A DNA stretch of 64,000 nt, from positions 35,203-99,202 of the forward strand of contig JAFPVC010000037.1 of the NCBI GenBank assembly GCA_017413085.1, in the 5' to 3' direction. Numbering within the stretch: the first letter of the stretch is position 1; every line of letters starts with the position of its first letter. This document shows positions 25,549 through 56,319 of this stretch, piece after piece. Under the pieces are notes generated by a model that saw only the letters and a program-made list of their open reading frames with translations, was not told the DNA's origin and made no database searches. The translations under genes were made by a program, and so were the position numbers. The stretch comes from Prevotella sp. GTDB lineage: Bacteria; Bacteroidota; Bacteroidia; Bacteroidales; Bacteroidaceae.

Positions 25549-27351
25549 ATGAAGAACAAACTCCGCAGTTCGGTCTGCACAGAAGGTCGTCGTATGGCAG
25601 GAGCACGCGCTCTGTGGGTAGCCAACGGCATGAAAAGAGAACAGTTTGGGAAACCAATTATCGCTATAGTAAACTCATTCACTCAGTTTGTGCCTGGTCA
25701 CACCCATCTGCATGAGATAGGACAGATTGTCAAGGCTGAGATTGAAAAACTTGGCTGCTACGCTGCTGAATTCAACACTATAGCCGTTGACGACGGCATA
25801 GCAATGGGACATGACGGCATGCTTTACTCTCTGCCGTCACGTGACGTAATTGCTGACTCTGTGGAGTATATGATTAACGCCCACAAGGCCGATGCTATGG
25901 TATGCATATCTAATTGCGACAAGGTTACACCAGGTATGCTTATGGCAGCCATGCGTCTGAACATCCCTGCGGTGTTCGTAAGCGGTGGTCCTATGGAGGC
26001 AGGAAAGGTAAACGGTGAGAATGCCGACCTTATCACTGCCATGATTAAGGGTGGTGACCCAACTGTAAGCGATGAGGAACTGGATATCGTAGAACACTCA
26101 GCTTGTCCAGGCTGCGGTGCTTGCTCTGGCATGTTCACTGCAAACTCAATGAACTCATTGACCGAGGCAATCGGTCTTTCATTGCCTGGCAATGGTTCTA
26201 TCCTTGCCACTCACGTGAACCGCATACAACTTTTCAAAGATGCTGCTAAACTTATCGTAAAGAACGCAATGGCATACTATGAGGACGGCGACGACTCCGT
26301 TCTGCCACGCTCTATCGCAACACGTCAGGCTTTCCTTAATGCAATGACACTCGACATTGCCATGGGTGCTTCTACCAACACCGTACTTCACCTGCTTGCA
26401 GTAGCACAGGAGGCTGAGGTTGATTTCAAGATGTCAGATATCGACGCACTGAGCCGCAAGGTTCCGTTCCTCTGCAAACTTGCTCCTAACTGGCAGAAAT
26501 ACAGCATACAGGAAGAGAATCGTGCCGGTGGTATCCTCGGTATTCTCGGTGAGTTGGCAAAAGGCAACCTGCTCGACCTTTCATGCAAACGCGTCAACGG
26601 CGCCACACTTGGCGAAGACATAGAAAAGTATTCTATACTCAAAGACAATATAGATCCTGAAGCAGACCGCATTTACCATTCTGCTCCTGGTGGCAAATTC
26701 TCCACGAAGATGGGTTCACAGGACACACGTTGGGAGTCGCTTGACACCGACCGTGAAAACGGCTGCATCCGCGACATTGAGCATGCTTACACCAAGGATG
26801 GCGGTATGGCTGTGCTCTTCGGCAACATCGCACAGGATGGCTGCGTAGTGAAGACAGCCGGCGTAGCACCTGAATTGTGGCACTTTGAAGGTCCAGCCGT
26901 TGTCTTCGACTCACAGGAAGACGCTTGCGAGGGCATACTTGGCGGCAAGGTCAAGAAAGGCGACTGCGTGGTAATCACACATGAAGGTCCTAAGGGAGGT
27001 CCTGGTATGCAGGAGATGCTCTACCCCACCTCGTACATCAAGTCAATGCACATGGGTAAAGAATGTGCTCTGATTACTGACGGACGTTTCTCTGGTGGTA
27101 CGTCAGGACTGTCCATTGGCCATATCTCACCAGAGGCTGCATCAGGCGGCAATATCGGTAAAATAAAGGATGGCGACATCATCGTCATCGACATACCAAG
27201 CCGTTCAATCAACGTTAAACTCTCTGACGAAGAATTGGCTGCTCGTCCACAACAGCCATTGAAGCGCAAGCGTGTCGTCAGCAAGGCTCTGCGTGCATAC
27301 GCTCAGAGCGTGGCTTCTGCAGATAAAGGTGGAGTAAGAATTATTGACTAA
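25549..27351 (+). CDS. ilvD: Dihydroxy-acid dehydratase
   Basis: Dehydrates 2,3-dihydroxy acids to the 2-keto acids of isoleucine and valine synthesis. Cysteines for the iron-sulfur cluster lie in [15 protein letters not shown] and in [17 protein letters not shown]. The C-terminal catalytic serine region is [17 protein letters not shown]. At 600 residues it is full length. It is the first gene of ilvD-ilvB-ilvN-thioesterase-ilvC. No leader peptide or riboswitch is visible in the 37 bp upstream. Confidence 0.97.
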
Positions 27352-27353
27352 AG

Positions 27354-27438
27354 CATAATGCATAATTAATAATGCATAGTGCATAATTAATCCAGAAAGA
27401 GTCAGTCTGTTAGAATTTTGAATTTTGAATTCTAAATT
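27354..27438. repeat. AT-rich near-repeat spacer between ilvD and ilvB
   Basis: The spacer contains two imperfect copies of GCATAATGCATAATTAAT followed by GAATTTTGAATTTTGAATT and CTAAATTATGAATTG. These are direct and inverted low-complexity copies with no promoter consensus. Similar AATTAAGAATTATGAATT sequence borders the gene remnant near 9.99 kb, suggesting a dispersed intergenic sequence class. Confidence 0.5.
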
Positions 27439-29151
27439 ATGAATTGTAATATTACCGGTGCTGAAGCACTGATGCTCTCACTCAAGGCTGAGGGAGTTGA
27501 AACCATATTCGGTTACCCTGGTGGTGCTATCATGCCCACCTACGATGCATTATACGATTACACACGTGGCGAAAAGAAAGCCTTTGAGCACATTCTTGTG
27601 CGCCATGAGCAGGCGGCAGCACATGCAGCGGAAGGATATGCACGCATAAGCGGTAAGGTAGGTGTTACACTTGTAACATCTGGTCCTGGCGTGACAAACA
27701 CGCTCACAGGCGTGGCAGACGCCATGATGGATTCCACACCTATCATCGTCATTGCCGGACAGGTGGCTACAAGCGTTTTGGGTTCAGATGCTTTTCAGGA
27801 GGTTGACCTCGTTGACGTGGCTCAGCCTATCACAAAGTGGGCATACCAAATCCGTTCTGCAAAAGACATTGCATGGGCTGTAAGCCGTGCATTCTACATT
27901 GCAAGGAACGGACGTCCCGGTCCTGTCGTTCTCGACTTTACCAAGAATGCACAGGTCGAGAAAATTGATTACGAACCAGCAAAAGTTGAGTTCATACGCA
28001 GTTATGTTCCCTACCCTGAACCTAAGCAGGAAAAGATACAGGCTGCCGCAGAACTCATCAACAATGCAAAGAAGCCCCTGGCACTCGTAGGTCAGGGTGT
28101 GGAACTGGGCAATGCGCAATCAGAGTTAAGAGATTTCCTTGAAAAAGCCGACATTCCTGCCGGCCGCACGCTCATGGGTCTCTCTGCCCTCCCCTCCGAC
28201 CATCCTCTAAACATGGGTATGCTCGGCATGCACGGCAACTATGCCGTAAACCTCAAAGAGCAAGAAGCTGATGTAATCATCGCCATTGGCATGCGTTTCT
28301 CTGACCGTGTAACGGGCGACCTCAAGCGATATGCCAAGCAGGCAAAAGTGATACACCTTGATATTGACCGCTCAGAGATAGACAAGTGTGTGAAGACTAC
28401 TGTCGCTGTGGTGGGCGACTGCAAGGTAACACTGCCGGCACTCACCTCCCTCGTAAACAAAAACGACCATACAGAGTGGAAAGACTCTTTCAAGCCTCTG
28501 CACGACAAAGAGAAAGAAAGTGTCATCATTCCAGCCACCATGCCTAAGGACGGACCGTTGCTTATGGGCGAGGTAGCCCACAAAGTTGCCGAACTCAGTG
28601 CCGACGATGCTTTCCTCGTTACCGACGTGGGACAAAATCAGCTGATGTCTGCACGCTACTTCAAATATCTGAAGAACCGTTCCATCGCGACCTCAGGCGG
28701 TATGGGAACCATGGGTTATGGTTTGCCGGCAGCCATGGGTGCTACATACGGTGCACCTGGGCGCACTGTCTGCTGCTTCATGGGCGACGGTGGTCTGCAG
28801 ATGATGATTCAGGAATTTGGCACCATTATGGAGCACCACATTCCTGTGAAGATGATTCTGCTCAATAACAACTACCTCGGCAACGTGCGCCAGTGGCAGG
28901 ACATGTTCTTTGGCAAGCGTCAGTCGTTCACTCCAATGACGAATCCCGACTTCGGCAAAGTGGCCGAGGCCTACGGCATACCTTACAGGCGTGTGGCTGA
29001 CCGCACAGAGTTGAAGGAAGCAATCAATGAGATGCTGACGACAAAAGGCCCGTTCCTGCTCGAGACCATCATCAAACCAGATGCAAACGTAGAACCAATG
29101 ACCGCACCCGGCAAGGCTGTTGACGAAATGGTGCTCAACATCGATTGCTAA
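27439..29151 (+). CDS. ilvB: Acetolactate synthase, large (catalytic) subunit
   Basis: A thiamine diphosphate enzyme condensing pyruvate with pyruvate or 2-ketobutyrate. The PYR domain opens ETIFGYPGGAIMPTYDAL with the activating glutamate in VRHEQAAAHAAEGYAR. The central FAD-binding domain spans about residues 190-340. The PP domain has the diphosphate motif GDGGLQMMIQEFGT to LNNNYLGNVRQWQ. At 570 residues it is full length. The regulatory subunit follows after 29 bp. Confidence 0.97.
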   Translation: MNCNITGAEALMLSLKAEGVETIFGYPGGAIMPTYDALYDYTRGEKKAFEHILVRHEQAAAHAAEGYARISGKVGVTLVTSGPGVTNTLTGVADAMMDSTPIIVIAGQVATSVLGSDAFQEVDLVDVAQPITKWAYQIRSAKDIAWAVSRAFYIARNGRPGPVVLDFTKNAQVEKIDYEPAKVEFIRSYVPYPEPKQEKIQAAAELINNAKKPLALVGQGVELGNAQSELRDFLEKADIPAGRTLMGLSALPSDHPLNMGMLGMHGNYAVNLKEQEADVIIAIGMRFSDRVTGDLKRYAKQAKVIHLDIDRSEIDKCVKTTVAVVGDCKVTLPALTSLVNKNDHTEWKDSFKPLHDKEKESVIIPATMPKDGPLLMGEVAHKVAELSADDAFLVTDVGQNQLMSARYFKYLKNRSIATSGGMGTMGYGLPAAMGATYGAPGRTVCCFMGDGGLQMMIQEFGTIMEHHIPVKMILLNNNYLGNVRQWQDMFFGKRQSFTPMTNPDFGKVAEAYGIPYRRVADRTELKEAINEMLTTKGPFLLETIIKPDANVEPMTAPGKAVDEMVLNIDC

Positions 29152-29180: not shown

Positions 29181-29732
29181 ATGGAAAATCAAGACAAACA
29201 GATATTCACACTTCAGGTATATACTGAGAACGTAGCTGGTATGCTGAGCCAGATTACCGCAGTATTCACACGCCGTCAGATAAACATTGAAAGCCTCAAT
29301 GTTTCTCCGTCGAGCATCAAGGGCATACACAAATATACCATCACCGCATACAGCGATGAAGACACCATGAAGAAGGTGGTGAAAGGAATTGAAAAAAAGA
29401 TTGATGTTGTCAAGGCTCATTTTTATACCAATGCCGACCTGTTTCTCGTGGAGGTGGCACTGCTCAAACTATCCACCCCATTTGTCATGGCGACGCCTGA
29501 GATATCACGCATCATCCGCCATGCAAACGCACGAATCACAGAGGTAAACGACACTTTCTGCATTGTCGTGGCACAAGGCACCACTGACCAGATTCTCGAT
29601 GTATTCCACAGCATACGCAACACCAACAAGGAGTGCATCCTGCAGTTCACACGTTCTGGCCGTATTGCCGTTACACGCAGTTGTCAGGAGGAGGTAAGCA
29701 AATTCCTTCACGAACGCGGTGAAGAGATATAA
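29181..29732 (+). CDS. ilvN: Acetolactate synthase, small (regulatory) subunit
   Basis: Regulatory partner of IlvB that confers valine feedback inhibition. Two ACT-type domains are visible: residues about 7-80 (FTLQVYTENVAGMLSQITAVFTRR) and about 92-165 (VATPEISRIIRHANARITEVN and following). At 183 residues it is the longer type with a C-terminal extension. A very strong hairpin follows immediately, so transcription from ilvD probably ends or is attenuated here before the thioesterase and ilvC. Confidence 0.94.
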   Translation: MENQDKQIFTLQVYTENVAGMLSQITAVFTRRQINIESLNVSPSSIKGIHKYTITAYSDEDTMKKVVKGIEKKIDVVKAHFYTNADLFLVEVALLKLSTPFVMATPEISRIIRHANARITEVNDTFCIVVAQGTTDQILDVFHSIRNTNKECILQFTRSGRIAVTRSCQEEVSKFLHERGEEI

Positions 29733-29739
29733 TAAATAT

Positions 29740-29801
29740 GAATAGTATAATGTAAAAACGGCACGCCAGTTAAGACGTGCCGTTTTTACATTATACTATT
29801 C
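29740..29801. terminator. Strong hairpin after ilvN
   Basis: A perfect 26-bp inverted repeat (29740-29765 with 29776-29801) with a 10-nt loop. The stem contains AAAAACGGCACG and its complement CGTGCCGTTTTT, so a T run sits inside the stem on either strand. It is clearly a terminator-type structure separating ilvDBN from the downstream genes. Confidence 0.85.
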
Positions 29802-29988
29802 TTACCACTACATTCCTCGTCTGATAAAATGCTTGTAAGACGGGGATTATTCATAGCAAAGTGTCAGATTGGAAAGTTCTGGTTTGCGGAGCGAAATAGA
29901 AAAAAGGACTGGTTCTGCTTTTGTCTTTTTCTCTTATTTTCTATTCTTCAATTCTTCATTTTTTCAGTTTTAATATTATGGACGGTGC

Positions 29989-30098
29989 AATCAGGCTGCT
30001 TTTAGGAGGTAATCAGGTTGCGATTGCACCGCAATCAGATAGCGATTACAATGTAATCAGGCTGCGATTATACCATAATCAGGTGCTGATTACAATGC
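29989..30098. repeat. Array of five 22-bp dyad repeats (copy A)
   Basis: Units begin with AATC at 29989, 30011, 30033, 30055 and 30077, exactly 22 bp apart. The shared pattern is AATCAGG, four variable bases, GATTACA, four variable bases. AATCAG and the following CTGATT/CGATT are arranged as an inverted repeat within each unit. The first unit is degenerate in its second half. The same syntax recurs at 56210-56319. Confidence 0.85.
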
Positions 30099-30300
30099 AG
30101 GGAAATAGCTTAAAAAGCGAACTTGCTGACTATCTGTACATTAACAATCACACCATAATTCCGCTGTACGAAGCCAGCGGGAAAAAAATTTCAAATACGC
30201 GAGTATTTCAGCGGTTTGCAAAATCAATTTGTAAGAAAAAATGCCCGAAACGTGACACAGTGATTATCATAAGAAACAATCCATATTTATCATGCGAAAA

Positions 30301-30332
30301 CTTGTGGAATTGGAAATAAAACACTAACTTTG
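30301..30332 (+). promoter_or_regulatory. Promoter of the acyl-ACP thioesterase gene
   Basis: CTTG (30301-30304) and TAACTTTG (30325-30332) are separated by 20 bp, matching the Bacteroidetes consensus with one mismatch. The leader is about 30 nt. Confidence 0.65.
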
Positions 30333-30366
30333 CAGATGTTTTTCACCAATAATATATTACAAAGAC

Positions 30367-31134
30367 ATGGAAGAAGATAAAACTACGCCGTTATATCATA
30401 CTTCAGCGGATGCCTTTCACTGCGACTTCACCAAGAAGCTGTGCATGGGACACCTTGGCAACGATCTGCTGAACGCATCAGACATGCACTCAACTGCACG
30501 TGGCTTCGGCATGACCTATCTGTGGACACTAAACAAGACATGGGTTCTCTCACGCCTTGCACTGGAACTGAACGACATACCACGCGAACACGACAAATTC
30601 GTTATCGAGACATGGGTAGAGAACGCAATGAAGTTCTTCACGAAACGAAACTGGGAAATACGTTCCGAAGACGGCAGCAAGACCTACGGATATGCCAAAA
30701 GCATCTGGGCAATGATAGATACCGTTTCGCGCGAGCCACAGGACATTCTCGCCATCAACGATGGCAAGATAAAGGACTATCTATTTTCAGAAAAACAATG
30801 CCCTATAAAAGACGTTTCGCGCGTGAAGACTCCAGAAATGCATGAGTACACAGAATTCAGGGTGCTCTATGGCGACCTTGACGTAAACGGACACCTGAAC
30901 TCCATGCGATACATAGACCATGTGATGGACACCTTCGCTCCGGATTTTTTCATGTCACACCAAGTCAACAGAATAGAGATAGCCTACGTGGCTGAAGGCC
31001 ACTGGGGCGATACCGTGCGCATATACCACAAGGAAGGAGACGATGGAATGCATTATTTCCGACTTGAACGCTATAATGAAGGCGAAGATGCCACTGAATT
31101 GGCACGTGTAATGATGAAATTCAAAACAAACTGA
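30367..31134 (+). CDS. Acyl-[acyl-carrier-protein] thioesterase
   Basis: Hydrolyses acyl-ACP to release free fatty acids (FatA/FatB-like double hot-dog fold). The first hot-dog domain is about residues 10-140 (SARGFG-like segment STARGFGMTYLW, then ETWVENAMKFFTKRNWEI). The second domain starts near residue 160 and holds the catalytic-type residues in YGDLDVNGHLNSMRYID (Asp172, Asn174, His176). At 255 residues it is the bacterial size. Its position between ilvN and ilvC is seen in related Bacteroidales; it might help adjust branched-chain acyl composition, which is inference. It has its own promoter. Confidence 0.9.
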   Translation: MEEDKTTPLYHTSADAFHCDFTKKLCMGHLGNDLLNASDMHSTARGFGMTYLWTLNKTWVLSRLALELNDIPREHDKFVIETWVENAMKFFTKRNWEIRSEDGSKTYGYAKSIWAMIDTVSREPQDILAINDGKIKDYLFSEKQCPIKDVSRVKTPEMHEYTEFRVLYGDLDVNGHLNSMRYIDHVMDTFAPDFFMSHQVNRIEIAYVAEGHWGDTVRIYHKEGDDGMHYFRLERYNEGEDATELARVMMKFKTN

Positions 31135-56041: not shown

Positions 56042-56209
56042 GAACAAAACTAAAAAATAATGTCAGTAAAATGTTGTATTAAAATGGCGTTTCCTTGCGA
56101 TAGAAATCAAGAAACTGCATTTTGACCTCAAATACGCCAAAATTTCGCGTTTTAGATAACATACTTATATATAACAGTTTACCCACAAAGCGACTAACCG
56201 CCACAAACT

Positions 56210-56319
56210 AATCAGGCCCTGATTACAGTGTAATTAGCACCCGATTACACTGTAATCAGGGCCTGATTGGTTTGCAATCTGCACTTGATAATCTTGTAAT
56301 CAGTATGCAATTAGTCTAA
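56210..56319. repeat. Array of five 22-bp dyad repeats (copy B)
   Basis: Units begin with AAT at 56210, 56232, 56254, 56276 and 56298, exactly 22 bp apart, with GATTA/GATT/GATAA at 56221, 56243, 56265 and 56287. The best unit is AATCAGG, CCCT, GATTACA, GTGT. The pattern is the same as at 29989-30098, with units four and five degenerate. The sequence around AATCAGGGCCTGATT (56254-56268) is a perfect palindrome. Confidence 0.85.

Follow-up and report, generated by a model that had tools for sequence, protein, structure and literature searches.

The repeat described here most likely represents a new intergenic repeat family of high copy number, to which BrickBuilt, BIME/REP and BOX elements are the closest known systems. 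BOX elements of Streptococcus pneumoniae are modular intergenic repeats with a tandem middle module, like the arrays here, and differ from them in unit size, phylum and sequence. Plasmid iterons, such as those of R6K, are tandem sites of about 22 bp, whereas the arrays here are dispersed on the chromosome. Lrp/AsnC-type wrapped arrays hold several dimer sites in helix phase, with four dimers per octamer; set beside them by description, our arrays may be alike in manner of working only. Porphyromonas, the genus in which BrickBuilt was described, is of the same order as Prevotella. BrickBuilt, a MITE of P. gingivalis, is reported to have a 23-nt unit repeated 1 to 22.8 times in each element, predicted long stem loops and 19 copies in strain ATCC 33277; its authors found it in P. 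gingivalis and P. gulae, and two Prevotella gave no more than weak matches to its tail (PMC4596501). The likeness to our repeat lies in intergenic, multicopy, spacerless short tandem repeats, which in composite copies of the genome analyzed here are likewise flanked by a leader and a tail whose ends are inverted; in contrast, the repeat here has mostly four near-dyad units of 22 bp, occurs in bare copies too, is genus-wide with changing sequence, and reaches an estimated 230 or so copies in one genome (RGIG8630) compared to the 19 of ATCC 33277 (PMC4596501). REP/BIME repeats with RAYT (PMC3733652) are likewise high-copy intergenic palindromic units that also form mosaics. However, the arrays here differ from them in their strict 22-bp tandem register and lack of hairpin covariation. 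Full-text literature searches, which returned titles and abstract openings and mostly covered papers outside subscription, gave no description of such arrays.

The window is the whole stretch of DNA analyzed, 64,000 nucleotides of a Prevotella sp. assembly (G000; 2.83 Mb, 62 contigs, 79% complete). Its first array lies between ilvN and a thioesterase gene. The features are as follows.

29181..29732, plus strand: ilvN, acetolactate synthase small subunit.
29733..30366, no strand assigned: the whole ilvN-thioesterase gap, 634 bp, which holds the array, leader, terminator-like hairpin and promoter-like site.
29740..29801, no strand assigned: perfect 26-bp inverted repeat with a 10-nt loop, 3' of ilvN, terminator-like by eye.
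29987..30096, minus strand (that of the composite element): 22-bp array of five units, starting at 29987, 30009, 30031, 30053 and 30075.
30097..30239, minus strand: composite (type A) leader, common to other copies in the genome; the shared DNA runs to about 30264.
30224..30235, minus strand: element end motif CTKACANNNTGA.
30303..30332, plus strand: promoter-like site TTG ... TAACTTTG, 5' of the thioesterase gene, sequence read by eye.
30367..31134, plus strand: acyl-ACP thioesterase gene.
56208..56317, no strand assigned: second 22-bp array of the window, five units of similar kind, from tandem repeat finding.

The site at 30303..30332 resembles the Bacteroidetes promoter consensus and is a putative promoter.

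The initial annotation described the first array as five exact 22-bp repeats, each unit holding AATCAGG and GATTA(CA) as an inverted pair. All nine of its coordinates were correct (AATC at 29989, 30011, 30033, 30055 and 30077; GATT at 30022, 30044, 30066 and 30088), and the spacing is exactly 22 bp. The letters, however, are similar rather than identical, with 11 to 19 of 22 positions agreeing in pairwise comparisons of the five units, and the inverted pair is missing from the terminal unit (29987-30008), which has CTTTTA in place of the GATT arm. TRF gave a period of 22 with 73% matches and 3% indels. The best lag-22 identity over 66 bp was 0.68, a value that 100 simulations of the window under a first-order Markov model never approached (highest, 0.53), and no lag from 10 to 60 exceeded 0.59 except 22 and its double, 44. 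A chance origin was rejected on these simulations, with which a sequence-blind scan, described below, agrees. A CRISPR array was also rejected, since the units are contiguous and have no spacers. The array is spanned by a 132-aa ORF that passes through repeated DNA common to other, non-coding copies, and as far as seen the array appears to be non-coding, so that the initial judgment that it was neither CRISPR nor coding held. No RNA family was matched in an Rfam search at the window's arrays, and a known RNA family was rejected there on that result.

A blast of the window array against its own genome gave 48 matches. In 61 fetched loci plus the window we counted 60 in-register arrays with 255 units, four units being the commonest number (31 of 60 arrays; five in 18, three in 7, six in 3 and two in 1). 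Spacings were 22 (168), 44 (14), 66 (1) and 32 (1), so that 183 of 184 were multiples of 22; the array with the spacing of 32 (L025), which is off register, was left out of the 60. A shuffled control gave one cluster in 244 kb (first 4,100 bases per locus). Thirteen further arrays came from loci found by the end motif, two of them with two units near contig ends, and the genome holds at least 74 arrays in total. One of these arrays found no match when searched in phages and plasmids, one strict array pattern found none in viral contigs, and there was no sign of a phage or plasmid origin for that array. Bare four-unit arrays (8 of G000 and 9 of a relative, G020) had no slot-specific likeness between places and are therefore not recent block copies. 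Units were somewhat more alike within arrays than between them (0.88 vs 0.79 and 0.82 vs 0.78 for the 8 G000 and 9 G020 arrays).

Blast of 60 genomes (G000 and 59 relatives) found arrays in G000, G020 and, weakly, G015. A pattern scan matched four MAGs: RGIG8630 (G343), SUG853 (G344), SRR7188234_bin.28 (G020) and SRR873599_bin.37 (G345, the same as G198). A 4-unit sequence model, for which no more than 22 candidates were scored in any genome, matched 37 of 200 genomes of the genus, G000 included, and in a family sample the 4-unit model matched 5 of 121 genomes, in 2 of 30 genera. Later scoring with the model took 150 candidates per genome, and its match numbers are therefore not copy numbers. 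Because the unit sequence differs between genomes, a scan without sequence was run on 760 kb, made up of 38 stretches set at arbitrary places in 13 genomes; one all-N stretch was discounted in this work. Lag 22 gave 28 matches in 21 stretches, compared to 1.7 on average at the 50 other lags, of which the harmonic at 44 was highest (16), followed by lag 21 (12) and the rest at 10 or fewer, with none at lag 23. The 28 are an upper count for this array family, since some lag-22 matches (e.g., in G007 and G009) are not dyad-like. Six of the 13 genomes had been chosen in knowledge of their model matches and gave 19 lag-22 matches in 400 kb; the seven genomes without model matches gave 9 in 360 kb. 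The spread was uneven, with 8 matches in 120 kb of G015, 5 per 60 kb in G187 and in G002, and none in the arbitrary stretches of G003, G018, G019 and G155 (three without and one with a model match). Two other genera of the family gave one lag-22 match in 80 kb, and eight other families of the order gave none in 240 kb. With other letters and the same 22-bp period, arrays occur across Prevotella.

In RGIG8630, 200 kb of arbitrary stretches held 24 arrays, 18 of them with four units, at spacings of 22 (53) and 44 (2); a shuffled control of these stretches gave no arrays. This amounts to about one array per 8 kb or, by proportion, about 230 in 1.9 Mb. Four units were also found in 13 of 15 arrays of G020 (a lenient count), 7 of 9 at pattern-chosen loci of RGIG8630 and 2 of 4 at such loci of SUG853.

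The explanation that we favor, with slightly better than even confidence, is a high-copy, non-coding intergenic repeat family with a core on which a dimeric DNA-binding protein would dock in phase. The dispersed repeat family itself is shown by the counts above. Its core is a short tandem set, mostly of four, of 22-bp near-dyad units (a 19-bp dyad plus a 3-bp linker), standing bare or inside larger composites that also have a leader, inverted ends and a terminator-like hairpin. The outer half-sites, GTAAT/ATTAC, are held and the inner bases turn over between species and subfamilies, with the 22-bp register kept. Each unit would bind a dimeric protein, and because neighboring units are two helical turns apart, the dimers would sit side by side on one face of the DNA; this docking would be what selection keeps, and it may serve spread of the element, chromosome organization or both. 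We infer a docking core from the register, the half-sites, the lack of hairpin covariation and partial evidence of constraint. No candidate protein for the arrays was found, which we counted against this explanation. Of the three readings first offered for this DNA (an operator array, a nucleoid-protein site or a selfish short repeat), a protein-binding array and a dispersed repeat both survive, combined in the docking explanation; an operator at the promoter is not supported.

That the geometry is kept across the genus as the letters change suggests a conserved protein whose site evolves. A larger proposal, which we put forward tentatively and consider doubtful, is that the arrays are sites of a Prevotella chromosome-organizing protein, each array taking up about four dimers and some species having hundreds of such intergenic sites; the recognition sequence would co-evolve in each species with the 22-bp geometry fixed, and mobile composites would have captured and spread the sites. 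Prevotella is a major gut genus, and to our knowledge little is known of its chromosome organization; the arrays are a concrete and abundant DNA bait.

In G000 the most conserved columns were the AAT and ATT of the half-sites, at 1.5-2 bits, compared to 0-0.9 for the inner and linker columns. Fitted units had GTAAT..ATTAC or ATTGC in G000, G020, RGIG8630, SUG853 and G198 and more weakly in G015 and G070, and GTAAA..TTTAC in G209, with likenesses in G187 and G092; this likeness is partly built in, as the G000 model guided the choice of the stretches of G187, G092, G070 and G198 and of part of those of G015 and G209, and the consensus frames were fitted for symmetry, with three or four arrays in several species. 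The column conservation within G000 is free of this between-species selection. The fitted unit of G002 was indistinct, and the single array of G023 had its half-sites at another distance. Since the half-sites also form a dyad, ATTACAnTGTAAT, across the linker, the true site may be centered on the linker rather than inside the unit as initially drawn. In RGIG8630, SUG853 and G020, an AAAAG-type outermost half-site was found in 16 and 19 of 61 at the two ends and in only 1 to 5 at the slots between them; the arrays of these genomes thus tend to have marked ends. In 24 four-unit arrays of G000 the count of such ends was 0 at both ends.

The rival that survives best, although we think it considerably less probable, is a passive minisatellite in a non-autonomous mobile element (MITE), in which there is no binding role and 22 bp is an accident of slippage. 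An all-against-all comparison of flanks in G000 distinguished bare arrays (e.g., L020, L028, L033 and L039) from arrays within larger repeats. Among the latter, the type A composite, which includes the window copy, is made up of the array, a leader some 150-200 bp long and the end motif, and its fuller copies also have a terminator-like hairpin; by eye, such hairpins often adjoin arrays in this genome. A 16-base form of the end motif had 43 matches in G000 compared to 3 for a reversed control, and five clean inverted pairs spanned 371 to 415 bp, which is too short for a transposase gene and fits the MITE reading. Non-coding sequence, terminal inverted repeats and multiple copies, as in a MITE, were found together in the type A composite copies of G000 only. 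The period is 22 rather than the 23 nt of BrickBuilt, and the leader and tail with inverted ends belong to the G000 composites, with an end motif unlike that of BrickBuilt, and were not seen at bare arrays. A separate composite subfamily of G000, A4 (L109, L110, L111, L112, L114 and L115), has similar flanks on several contigs.

The association of end motif and array also suits a passive passenger, as 13 of 17 further end-motif loci held an array of the main unit and three (L268, L276 and L277) a 22-bp array of another unit, with none at L279. These last three arrays indicate that the 22-bp period is kept within G000 even where the unit differs. Gain and loss of units in steps of 22 likewise fits this reading: 8 of 12 array indels were multiples of 22 (4 were not), compared to 0 of 28 flank indels. 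Arrays in G000 were not slower than their flanks, at 0.165 vs 0.151 substitutions per site over five subfamilies (arrays lower in four and higher in B), in a comparison that left out flank columns below 55% local identity and in which pairs are not independent. The indel-to-substitution ratio was 0.013 in arrays and flanks alike, which together with the substitution rates counts against the docking explanation.

Three results stand against passivity. The period of 22 is also seen in genomes that yielded no type A leader (a search of 40 genomes found the leader in 2, G000 and one weak match), the half-sites are conserved within G000, and in G187 the arrays are far more alike than the flanks. 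Two groups of G187 composite copies had array identities of 0.976 and 0.937 compared to 0.69-0.81 for flanks, with 0 gap columns in arrays and 64 and 34 in flanks; one of the nine copies, L159a, lies outside both groups, and gene conversion or a recent spread of the element could also account for the high identity. An orthologous array of G020 and RGIG8630, 9 bp 3' of the same gene in both, was identical at 75 of 88 positions, compared to 32 of 53 in the next non-coding DNA and 92 of 111 in adjacent coding DNA. G020 and SUG853 also share an array position (6 and 4 bp 3' of a gene), and the RGIG8630 array is 224 bp from that gene; orthologous conservation thus refers to these two close pairs only. 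Array-gene distances differed in pairs of G000 with relatives.

Less probable again, and in our view improbable, is a REP/BIME-type hairpin repeat that acts as RNA or single-stranded DNA, whether as terminator, mRNA stabilizer or RAYT substrate. The units resemble such repeats in being near-palindromic, mostly intergenic, high in copy number and, in G000, often near terminator-like hairpins, and a two-unit form in RGIG8630 (L254:9383) is a long perfect stem. However, pairing of the arms did not rise above shuffles. It was at or below expectation within units, for the unit pairs 1-2 and 2-3 and for the array as a whole; paired cells made up 76.3% compared to 78.4% in shuffles, and 500 of 500 shuffles were at least as high. 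Within units, z was -11.0 for 61 arrays of relatives and -1.0 for 24 arrays of G000, the strongly negative value being at least partly due to units that are asymmetric and lie in both directions; an array present in two orientations could count twice. One of 10 comparisons (units 3-4 in G000) was slightly above shuffles, at z 0.9. A repeat kept as a hairpin was rejected on this lack of compensatory change between the arms. The lack of an Rfam family at the window's arrays also counts against an RNA role. As to RAYT, Y1_Tnp was above cut-off in three of five genomes (G000, G015 and G009) and absent from G020 (half complete) and from G023 (99% complete), the latter despite its model matches. The presence of arrays is not clearly matched by that of Y1 transposases, and a RAYT-driven REP is not supported in these five genomes. 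The Y1 (IS200-like) transposase of G000 is borderline (23.9 and 22 bits against a cut-off of 23), and the 3.3-kb locus around it has no array; it is 326 aa long (L102:2044-3024), lies near a contig end and adjoins a short tandem repeat that stays in frame.

The initial annotation had proposed a search for further arrays in Prevotella genomes. The outcome it named as refuting, either a lack of other arrays or a scatter of arrays within genes at no fixed period, was not seen. Further arrays proved numerous and kept their period, and they lie mostly between genes: 125 of 128 arrays in eleven sets of loci were outside predicted ORFs and three inside, and in RGIG8630, 20 of 24 were clear of predicted ORFs and 4 overlapped one. 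Neighboring genes were tandem at 68 arrays, convergent at 30 and divergent at 24, compared to 150, 61 and 80 background gaps, respectively; the background includes array-holding gaps, and three arrays were at locus edges. As orientation is near background, the arrays have no promoter bias. In RGIG8630, on small numbers, arrays somewhat favored convergent gaps (5 of 13; tandem, 11 of 57; divergent, 3 of 18). Genes common near arrays of G000 and G020 were about as many as a rough, uncomputed estimate of chance.

The thioesterase loci of 21 relatives of the same genus (L065-L085) were compared, 12 of which had ilvN on the locus. The gap between the two genes was 15 bp or less in 10 of these 12, and 121 bp and 1323 bp in the other two, compared to 634 bp here; in the nearest relative, G007, whose thioesterase is 74% identical, it was 15 bp. 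An operator array for a transcription factor that would control the thioesterase gene and a regulon is very unlikely: the array does lie 5' of a gene with a promoter-like site, and dyad sites two turns apart would suit a regulator, but arrays are not enriched at promoters, the density in RGIG8630 was judged too high for a regulon, and the junction has no room for such an operator in those 10 relatives.

The thioesterase gene directly follows ilvN in most relatives compared, and the junction that is empty there is occupied in the window. The simplest reading of these gap lengths is that the element inserted into an operon-like ilvN-thioesterase junction. The window copy retains its leader end (30224-30235, minus strand), and its tail looks truncated or replaced. 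The arrays also bear on gene order and operon structure, here by standing between ilvN and its usual direct follower. Upstream of ilvN, ORFs 25549-27351 and 27439-29151 are ilvD- and ilvB-like by eye, and TRF found short 7-bp tandem repeats between them (27349-27445).

In RGIG8630, a second palindromic repeat, GGACGCACCAAGGTGCGTCC, stands beside arrays (L248 and L249; e.g., in the left flanks, L248:11951 and L249:2403), and a motif near GTAACGCATTGAAT also recurs there (L248, L249). Rfam matches to RF01687 (Acido-Lenti-1 RNA) were found at L254:18056-18101, L254:9524-9569 and L254:18325-18370, and also at L253:16105-16150 and L253:16374-16419. Two of the L254 matches lie some 100 bp or less from 22-bp arrays, as though both belonged to a single mosaic.
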